A DNA stretch of 7,659 bases from Deltaproteobacteria bacterium. Lineage in GTDB: Bacteria; Desulfobacterota_C; Deferrisomatia; Deferrisomatales; JACRMM01. Shown here in pieces: positions 1,769 through 3,678 of the stretch (positions are counted from its first letter, which is position 1; each line of letters opens with the position of its first letter). Made by a program: the position numbers and the translations under genes. The notes below the pieces were generated by a model. That model was not told the origin of the DNA, ran no database searches, and saw nothing but the letters and a program-made list of their open reading frames with translations. The stretch is from positions 1-7,659 of the forward strand of contig JACRCS010000326.1 in assembly GCA_016218905.1 (NCBI GenBank). Direction: 5' to 3'.

Positions 1769-2386
1769 TCAGTCCCGCACCAAGTCGATCAAGGCCTCCC
1801 GGAGTGCCCGAAAGCTTCGGGAGGTGTTCGCGTCGAGCTTCATCTGGGCGCTGACTTCACGCGCTGCCTCCACTTTCCGCAGACCGGTCCTAAAGTACCC
1901 GGCGTTCTTGAGCACTCTTTCGAACGCCTCCCAGGTCCCACCCCGGATCGCGTCGGGATCTCGGAAGGGCGCCTTGGCCGGGATTGTCTCGGGAACTCGC
2001 GGGTAGGCTGCTCTCACCGCCGCCCACTCGCCGAAGTACCAGGCCTCCAACTCTTCCACTGCGATCCGGTTCACGACCGTAAACTGCCCCTCTCGAGGAC
2101 GGCTCCGAGTCGTGAGCCCGGCCGTCTCCGCAGCGGCTTCGAGCCTCGCCTTGAGCGCTTTGCAGTCATCGTCGTCTCGATCAAGGAGGACGACGACCTT
2201 TCGCCCCTCGGGGAGCCAGCGAGCGTAACCCTGCAAACGTTCGGGCAGTCGCCGAAGCAGTTCCTCCTTGCACTGGAACGGGAACACGGAGAAGGGGACA
2301 TCCGCCAGAAGACGGGGCAGGATCGACAGCAGAAAAGCCTCTGCCGACGGCTCTTCGACGAGGAAGTCGACGTGGTCCGCCCTCAT
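1769..2386 (-). CDS. DUF4276 family protein with TOPRIM-like acidic motifs
   Basis: This 205-residue protein is recognisable as DUF4276. It starts with VDFLVEEPSAEAFL (residues 6-19, acidic Glu11/Glu12 after the first strand). Next come FPFQCKEELLRRLPERL (35-51) and VVVLLDRDDDDC (64-75, with Asp69-x-Asp71). VVNRIAVEELEAWYFGEW (104-121), YPRV, KAPFRDPDAIRGGTWEAFE and LRKVEAA follow. A strand-end glutamate followed by a DxD is the pattern of TOPRIM nucleases such as those in OLD-family systems. Calling it a nuclease is inference. An upstream in-frame ATG (2494) exists, but the start at 2386 is far better: its ATG overlaps the ATPase stop as ATGA, and conserved sequence begins there. The translational coupling implies a fixed stoichiometry and probably a joint complex with the ATPase. 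The reading frame is intact, full length for the family and free of decay, unlike the hsd genes around it. Confidence 0.85.
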   Translation of the reverse strand: MRADHVDFLVEEPSAEAFLLSILPRLLADVPFSVFPFQCKEELLRRLPERLQGYARWLPEGRKVVVLLDRDDDDCKALKARLEAAAETAGLTTRSRPREGQFTVVNRIAVEELEAWYFGEWAAVRAAYPRVPETIPAKAPFRDPDAIRGGTWEAFERVLKNAGYFRTGLRKVEAAREVSAQMKLDANTSRSFRALREALIDLVRD

Positions 2387-3678
2387 CGCCCGGAGCTCCG
2401 CCTTCGTCGCCCACCGACCTGAACGGCTGGCCGGCCAACCGGCGCACCCGACCTCACGAGCGGATCTCCCACGCCGAAGCGGCCTTCCATCCACAGGTGA
2501 CCCAGGGTCGCGCCGGCCGCCATGAACTCCGGAACCCCTTCGATGTCCGCAGCACGGACCACCTGCGTGAAGCCGGATTCATCCCGGTACAGCACGCGGA
2601 CTTCCTCGGCCCTCATGGCGTTCAGGAAGAAAGGAGAGTGAGTGGTGACAAGGAGCTGGGCACGCTCGGCAGCTCGCCGGCACTCCTCAGCGAGTTCCGG
2701 CAGGAGGCGCGGGTGCAGGAAGTTCTCCGGCTCCTCTATGCCCACGAACTGCGGCGGATCGGGATCATGAAGCACGACGAGGTAGGCGAGCATCTTAAGG
2801 GTCCCGTCTGAGGCGAACCGTGAGAGCACCGGTTGCTCGAAGGGTGCGTCCTTGATCTGGAGCAGTAGCCGGCCATCCGCCATCGGCTCGGCGATGACCC
2901 GCTCCAGCCGCGGAACACGTCGGCGCAGCACCTCGAAAATCTTGTCGAGGCGCGCCGGGTGCTGCTCTTTGAGGTACTGGATGACGTTCGGGAGGTTGTC
3001 ACCGGTCCTGGACAGCCGTTCCTGGGGGCCTGCTTCCGGCTGCCCCCTCGCATCGTCGATCGACAGGTACGAGACGTACCAGTCGGTGATGAACTCGCGC
3101 AAGGCGGCAACGCGCGGATGCTCGGCGAATTGCCCCAGGCTGTTCACCGCGATCAGGTCAGGAGACCGCAGTGGGACATCGACGCGCTGGTCTTCCATCT
3201 CCGGCACTTCACCGCCCGCGGCGCGCCCCTGTCCCCGCCGGTACTCCAGAAACCGGAATGGACGGCCGGACTTGGGCGCGCGCGTCCACGCCAGCCACTC
3301 TTCGGCAACAAAGACCTTTCCTCCCTCCTCATCCACGGCTAGGTGGTAGGTCATGAGGCGGCTCGACGGAGACTCCCGGTACTTGATCTCGATGATGACC
3401 GGGCCGGTCTGCCCCCGCGTTCTCAGCTCCTTGGCCCGCCCCCGCCGGTCCCAGGCGTGCCGGAGGCCGAACTGAAAGCATTCCGCCAGGAAGCTGAAGA
3501 CGTCGAAGAGTGTGGACTTGCCGCTTCCGTTCGGCCCGAGGAGGACTGTGAGAGGGGTCAGATCCTTCAGCTCGAGAGACCGCAGCGCCCGATAGTTCTC
3601 GATTCGGAGGTATTCGATCCGAGCCGGCGGGCGAGAATCCTGTTGTTGCACCGCAAGCGACGTTCTTTGATCCGTCAT
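2383..3678 (-). CDS. AAA_21 / OLD-like (SMC-type) ATPase
   Basis: This 431-residue cytoplasmic ATPase of the ABC/SMC-like AAA_21 group resembles the OLD-family ATP-binding domain. The N-terminus IEYLRIENYRALRSLEL (21-37) leads into Walker A GPNGSGKST (48-56). A signature-like stretch RFASDGTLKMLAYL (287-300), Walker B with catalytic glutamate VGIEEPENFLHP (312-323) and the H-loop TTHSP (345-349) complete the nucleotide site. The middle 100-280 would hold the dimerisation or coiled region. It has no nuclease domain of its own, and the DUF4276 partner follows directly. ATG at 3678 has an AAGGGGAT Shine-Dalgarno and overlaps the hsdS stop by four bases. Its own stop overlaps the DUF4276 start by four bases. 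Related ATPases often end near EGRFGVGDP. Here about 25 extra basic residues (VGGRRRRSSGR) follow. In known defence systems such ATPases sense or assemble on phage targets and gate a TOPRIM effector. That role is inferred here. Confidence 0.9.
   Translation of the reverse strand: MTDQRTSLAVQQQDSRPPARIEYLRIENYRALRSLELKDLTPLTVLLGPNGSGKSTLFDVFSFLAECFQFGLRHAWDRRGRAKELRTRGQTGPVIIEIKYRESPSSRLMTYHLAVDEEGGKVFVAEEWLAWTRAPKSGRPFRFLEYRRGQGRAAGGEVPEMEDQRVDVPLRSPDLIAVNSLGQFAEHPRVAALREFITDWYVSYLSIDDARGQPEAGPQERLSRTGDNLPNVIQYLKEQHPARLDKIFEVLRRRVPRLERVIAEPMADGRLLLQIKDAPFEQPVLSRFASDGTLKMLAYLVVLHDPDPPQFVGIEEPENFLHPRLLPELAEECRRAAERAQLLVTTHSPFFLNAMRAEEVRVLYRDESGFTQVVRAADIEGVPEFMAAGATLGHLWMEGRFGVGDPLVRSGAPVGRPAVQVGGRRRRSSGR

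Follow-up and report, generated by a model that had tools for sequence, protein, structure and literature searches.

An intact HEC-01 gene pair, an OLD-type ATPase and a DUF4276 protein, within a decayed type I restriction–modification operon

The Locus

The window analyzed here is a 7,659-nucleotide stretch of a Deltaproteobacteria genome (contig JACRCS010000326.1, assembly GCA_016218905.1), and our subject is a pair of genes on its minus strand, one encoding an OLD-type ABC ATPase (A) and the other a DUF4276 protein (D). Read along that strand, the order is a scrap of hsdM, a relic of hsdS, intact A, intact D, and two scraps of hsdR (Table 1). Labels such as L001 or L026 denote the loci of relatives that carry the pair.

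No working type I restriction–modification (RM) system is present in the window: hsdM, hsdS, and hsdR are all fragments. HsdM is represented by residues 2–26 of 511 (L026 numbering) at 4206–4132, with 92% identity over 25 residues (tblastn), and, as read from the sequence, this relic is joined to that of hsdS by a large deletion. HsdS residues 211–267 of 358 (L036 numbering) at 4122–3952 are followed by a frame change and then by the tail, residues 276–355, at 3926–3690. What remains of hsdR starts 104 bases after the DUF4276 gene and consists of a head (residues ~6–28) and an inner piece, each with an in-frame stop; the open reading frame (ORF) at 1457–1128 matches TIGR00348 (E 1e-9). The relics thus hold one frame change, two stops, and large deletions in less than 1 kb, whereas the 1.9 kb of A and D hold none. 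An earlier note on this DNA had described a dead type I restriction locus with two intact frames beside the broken hsd genes, and both points stand.

The same note described A as coupled to D by ATGA and to the stop of hsdS, and both junctions are indeed 4-base overlaps. The −4 overlap between A and D is found in 44 of 79 loci (gene starts as called in this analysis), and that between the hsdS stop and the A start is also seen in L026, L036, L048, L053, L054, and L080.

Table 1. Coordinates of the gene pair and of the hsd relics in the window
Feature	Position	Strand	Evidence
OLD-type ABC ATPase (A), HEC-01A-like, intact, 431 aa, ATG start	2383..3678	-	Pfam, PADLOC, Foldseek
DUF4276 protein (D), HEC-01B-like, predicted OLD-type TOPRIM nuclease, intact, 205 aa, ATG start	1769..2386	-	
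ATGA stop/start overlap, A to D, 4 bases	2383..2386	-	ORF coordinates
ATGA overlap of hsdS relic stop with A start, 4 bases	3675..3678	-	
hsdS relic: residues ~211-267, frame change, C-terminal tail ~276-355 to stop	3675..4122	-	tblastn
hsdM relic: N-terminal residues ~1-35	4132..4236	-	tblastn vs L036 HsdM (1-35) and L026 HsdM (2-26)
hsdR relic: N-terminal head, ATG at 1664, TGA at 1595-1593	1593..1664	-	
hsdR relic: inner segment ~604-683 (L080 numbering), TAG at 1475-1473	1344..1583	-	tblastn

The Two Proteins

A matches Pfam AAA_21 (E 2e-31), and its best PADLOC model is HEC-01A PDLC04182 (E 9e-164, residues 19–405 of 431); by Foldseek, its best match in the Protein Data Bank (PDB) is PtuA (E 8e-13). 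Across 119 relatives, G48–T56 is conserved at 99–100%, and G313, E315–N319, S290-D291-G292, and H347 are each conserved at 100%. We take G48–T56 to be Walker A and G313 with E315–N319 to be the Walker B region. With an open frame and columns (H347 included) conserved at 99–100%, the earlier reading of an ATPase with complete Walker A, Walker B, and H-loop holds up. The C-terminal ~10–11 residues of A (2386–2418) are missing from 92–99% of the 119 relatives, with about 10 of them absent from 99%.

D matches Pfam DUF4276 (E 3e-29), with HEC-01B PDLC04202 as its best PADLOC model (E 3e-84, residues 5–203 of 205). Comparison of its predicted structure with TOPRIM folds, as the earlier note had proposed, gave a TOPRIM-like fold with an OLD helical part. 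A candidate class 2 OLD-type site, its residues mapped by motif and not by superposition, comprises E11/E12, E16, D69, D71, E112, E114, and K171, all conserved at 98–100% in the 119 relatives. D is a candidate two-metal TOPRIM nuclease, which on the predicted fold is its most likely role, and this structural assignment gives DUF4276 a concrete nuclease hypothesis. The names "DUF4276" and "PF14103" were not found in the literature searched.

Within PADLOC-DB, HEC-01A and HEC-01B are the top matches of the two proteins by a wide margin. Since both genes are best matched by HEC-01 models, the pair is, on sequence grounds, a copy of the already catalogued candidate defense system HEC-01. An uncatalogued new system is ruled out by the presence of HEC-01 in that database; the earlier proposal of a candidate two-gene defense system keeps its module and its defense-locus context and loses its novelty. 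Users of these models should be aware that two labels look swapped: PDLC04144, named HEC-01B, matches A, and PDLC04143, named HEC-01A, matches DUF4276. The HEC systems were reportedly defined in a 2024 preprint by Payne et al. HEC stands for Hma-embedded candidate, and HEC-04 and HEC-06 are said to act on phages (PMC12111858, PMC12988326).

Pairing and Genomic Context

A genome scan by means of D confirmed 130 candidates, of which the best 80 were kept, the loci being chosen by a good DUF4276 match. A lies directly upstream of D in 79 of these 80; L011 is cut by the contig start, and its duplicate L134 shows the last residues of A there. Among 185 genomes of one class, there were 29 DUF4276 matches in 21 genomes. 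An OLD-like ATPase match adjoins D in 28 of them (judged by eye from ORF coordinates), as a fragment only at L099, and there is none at L097. The exact pattern G.NG.GK[ST] occurs in an ORF of more than 250 aa at 22 of the 29 loci, and the pair is absent from 14 control genomes. The survey of adjacency suggested by the earlier note therefore finds the pairing to be recurrent. On one contig (G146:C32), two pairs stand in tandem (L094 and L113).

Long genes in the order HsdM-HsdS-ATPase-DUF4276-HsdR occur in L026 (checked by Pfam), L036, and L048, so the arrangement is more than chance. Among same-strand genes of at least 100 aa within 1 kb, HSDR_N occurs in 12 of 47 downstream of D and Methylase_S in 4 of 46 upstream of A; the remaining loci of the 80 had no qualifying gene. 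Elsewhere, PglW and PglX precede A (L025), PglZ and BrxL follow D (L015), or the neighbors are DUF499, a DUF1156 protein, and a PLD helicase (L041). The expected defense-island context is thus found as type I RM, BREX, and Hma-like seats, but contexts are mixed and some neighbors metabolic. Ribonucleotide reductase small chain matches account for 4 of the 47 downstream genes; these are perhaps the 317-aa genes that lie next downstream of the near-identical pairs of four Latescibacterota loci (L020, L024, L031, L078).

The hsdS–hsdR gap has been described as a seat for defense cassettes (PMC12255303; see also PMC11411939), and TOPRIM-linked OLD-ABC pairs as BREX backup effectors (PMC12839542). 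When gap occupancy was surveyed from the side of HsdR, D lay upstream in 4 of 53 loci with at least 700 bases upstream (60 of 110 HsdR matches were fetched, 7 of the 60 with too little room; of the four, L145 duplicates L053, and the locus edge cuts D in L185 and L188). Carriage on mobile elements was scarce: carriage on viral contigs was not confirmed (two pattern matches, close relatives only), no match came from 50,697 phage records at E 1e-5, and a single plasmid record among 72,556 matched at E 1e-15.

Scars of Type I Operons

HsdS tails were sought in the 700 bases upstream of A and HsdR heads in the 900 bases downstream of D, excluding own-locus matches. Of the upstream flanks, 19 of 73 matched, and of the downstream flanks, 18 of 81, window included, the union being 27 loci; the controls gave 0.0 matches per run for shuffled queries, 1 and 1 for swapped queries, and 0 and 1 for the opposite strand. 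In 13 loci, HsdR is at least 90% covered by the HsdR of another locus (L009, L026, L027, L028, L036, L048, L053, L054, L060, L062, L069, L077, L080). The sole HsdR of L076 lies upstream of the pair and is fully covered by itself alone (0.59 otherwise), and this locus bears no label in the tree described below; the count leaves L056 (tail within a 420-codon ORF), L058, and L075 unclassified. In ten loci, RM is present as scraps only within the pair's own locus, to which the search was confined (L001, L006, L008, L037, L044, L046, L061, L068, L079, and the window), though a complete hsdR would not fit on the contig in L001, L006, L079, and the window, and L044 shows A only in part, its contig starting inside that gene. 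The hsdR scrap of L037 was found in the HsdR coverage comparison. The pair in a broken locus thus recurs in several bacteria that are not related to one another. The scrap frames are short, for example, 35 codons in L001, 55 and 94 in L008, and 52 in L046.

On a quick maximum-likelihood tree (81 rows, 610 columns; L063 labeled intact on HsdR alone), the relic label needs 8 changes, of which well-supported branches make 7 necessary. The mean for shuffled labels is 9.6, which indicates mild clustering of the relics (L006 groups with L008, and L001 with the window). In three sets of close relatives, a locus that has a long RM operon is matched by one that has only scars (L026/L046, L036/L044, L080/L037). 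At L080:2664-7386, a scrap of hsdR head follows directly after DUF4276, then a 478-aa gene, and then a long hsdR; this may reflect the later insertion of a cassette, with the start of hsdR split or duplicated.

We tentatively suggest, as a possibility we would not yet rely on, that type I RM operons are way-stations for HEC-01, and that the cassette repeatedly outlives the operon, leaving hsdS tail and hsdR head as scars. The trigger would then need no RM in cis, and the retained tail of hsdS may act as a leader whose translation delivers ribosomes to the start of A.

Proposed Mechanism

We consider it likely that the pair is HEC-01, a split OLD nuclease in which A gates the TOPRIM nuclease D against infection, and that it is an hsdS–hsdR cassette outlasting its decayed RM operon. 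A would form a complex with D, acting as sensor and gate and holding D inactive. An infection signal met by A would release or switch on D, which would then stop the infection by cleaving nucleic acid, either the DNA of the phage or, in the manner of AriB, host RNA such as tRNA. The cassette would have been carried in the hsdS–hsdR gap and translated through coupling to hsdS; later, the RM genes would have decayed, with A and D staying open. Of the "ATPase-gated nuclease module" in the earlier note, the ATPase with a TOPRIM-like partner is retained, partly through predicted structure, and we infer the gating and the nuclease activity. The mechanism as a whole is plausible and partly supported by the predicted structure.

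Weighing the Evidence

With each row left out in turn, the window deviates from the consensus at 1 of the 58 DUF4276 columns and 2 of the 206 ATPase columns that count as conserved. The remaining 119 rows, themselves recruited as top hits to the proteins of the window, show medians of 1 and 2 and span 0–4 and 0–6, respectively. In a second set of 77 loci, the window is off at 4 of 212 columns (median 3), and 63 of the 77 rows, window included, are off at 4 or fewer. Synonymous sites are saturated against the sister locus L001 (pS 0.79 for A and 0.78 for D), which leaves no usable dN/dS.

Several results weigh against the proposal. D has no PDB match by Foldseek at E 1e-3 or below, none by sequence or by profile, and no profile–profile signal with OLD TOPRIM pieces, for which the template was thin (4 of 10 OLD loci passed the motif); its mapping to the OLD site is, again, motif-based. 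No phage test of HEC-01 was found in the literature searched, which lacked the defining preprint. Against the intactness of the pair, the window copy has evolved faster than L001, with 54–65 versus 25–41 unique changes across six outgroups (relative-rate chi-square 1.8 to 17.8, 5 of 6 over 3.84). Damaged pairs occur in 3 of 17 matches from genomes searched with D alone, namely a stop in D (L130) and a short D with A not found (L139, L140). As the loci were found through D, a live RM operon with a lost pair could not appear, and many loci have ordinary neighbors, some of the downstream genes being metabolic ones.

Given damaged pairs and D upstream in so few HsdR loci, the pair can die too, so that a preference for its survival is only suggested. 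Internal stops were seen in 6 of 110 HsdR matches against 1 of 17 and 0 of 29 DUF4276 matches, proteins of very different length, and these counts do not bear out the idea that D is less prone to decay than HsdR. The earlier idea that selection may act on the pair independently of restriction is likewise suggested only. In its favor are recurrent orphaning and conserved columns without a clear excess of changes; it is limited by the saturation of synonymous sites, a rate higher than that of L001, and the choice of loci through D.

One rival holds that the pair is a PARIS-like guard, in which A senses Ocr-like anti-restriction DNA mimics and frees D as a backup killer, with its value tied to the attacked neighboring RM or BREX system. 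Recurrent seats inside type I RM, BREX, and Hma-like loci would suit such a guard, as would PARIS logic and the backup-effector view (PMC12839542, PMC12409363). It is weakened by the ten scrap-only loci, in which no working cis type I RM was seen within the contig limits given above. Among 37 loci whose flanks extend 5 kb in each direction, moreover, a narrow search for type I genes gave an Hsd match in just 7. A could still sense the same phage proteins without RM in cis. We regard this guard as unlikely.

It is rather improbable, in our view, that the pair has no function of its own here and is open only through recent RM decay or the D-based choice of loci. That choice, the damaged pairs, the faster rate of the window copy, and an HsdM relic still so close to the HsdM of L026 all speak for neutral survival; against it stand the conserved columns, the contrast between the broken relics and the unbroken 1.9 kb, and the repeated changes to the relic state on the tree. 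Tight coupling and near-universal pairing would also be expected of an addiction module, in which a toxic D is restrained by A, A cannot go first, and the pair persists without defense. Such a module would nevertheless permit harmless prior loss of D and free joint deletions and leaves the seating in defense loci unexplained, and we think it very improbable.

The defense cassette that we favor matters because embedded defense genes are now found through "guilt by embedding," and may or may not depend on their host system. With the three pairs of close relatives, dependence on the surrounding system can be tested, since continued protection by scarred copies would mark HEC-01 as independent and not as the guard of a neighbor. 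Repeated orphaning is a natural test of such dependence and the part worth following.

Other Features of the Window

The flanks encode a metallo-beta-lactamase-fold protein, an IclR regulator, and an amidohydrolase (Pfam). A tRNA-borne island was ruled out, as ARAGORN reported no tRNA and Rfam a sub-threshold snoRNA match only. A promoter consensus scan of 1600–4400 gave a single site, at 1772–1745 behind DUF4276, and none before the ATPase. Minus-strand frames at 5753–6330, which we take to resemble an ABC transporter substrate-binding protein, are probably a broken gene; the ORF at 5753–6196 has no Pfam match. Positions 1–120 presumably belong to a dispersed palindromic repeat of bacterial genomes, and the intergenic stretch 7440–7510, by the amidohydrolase gene, carries repeated TGTCAGTT-like words.

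Comparison with Known Systems

The pair resembles HEC-01 both in its model matches and in being embedded within another defense locus. HEC-01 takes its name from the Hma locus, and the window pair lies instead in a dead type I RM operon, although its relative L041 adjoins DUF499 and a PLD helicase. AriB of PARIS is a DUF4435 protein according to the earlier note, and no AriB partner is present here, all 11 PADLOC families that match D at E 0.1 or below being HEC-01; A also scores far lower against AriA (E 3e-31) than against HEC-01A (E 9e-164). What PARIS (AriA and AriB) shares is a two-gene OLD-type ABC ATPase with a TOPRIM nuclease and a link to restriction (PMC12409363).

Class 2 OLD and Gabija GajA share with D a TOPRIM region of similar size and predicted fold, and D has a candidate E/DxD/E/K site. 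Class 1 and 2 OLD proteins, however, carry ATPase and TOPRIM in one chain, whereas the window has two ORFs with an ATGA overlap, and in place of the GajB helicase gene of Gabija there are hsd relics on both sides. Septu PtuA and retron PtuA are among the closest solved structures to A, but the partner of PtuA is the HNH protein PtuB and that of A is TOPRIM-like. The same type of seat, in the hsdS–hsdR gap or inside type I RM, is occupied by DarTG2 of E. coli (PMC12255303) and TgvAB of Vibrio VPI-2 (PMC11411939); these are unrelated genes, and their RM systems are described as working, unlike that of the window.
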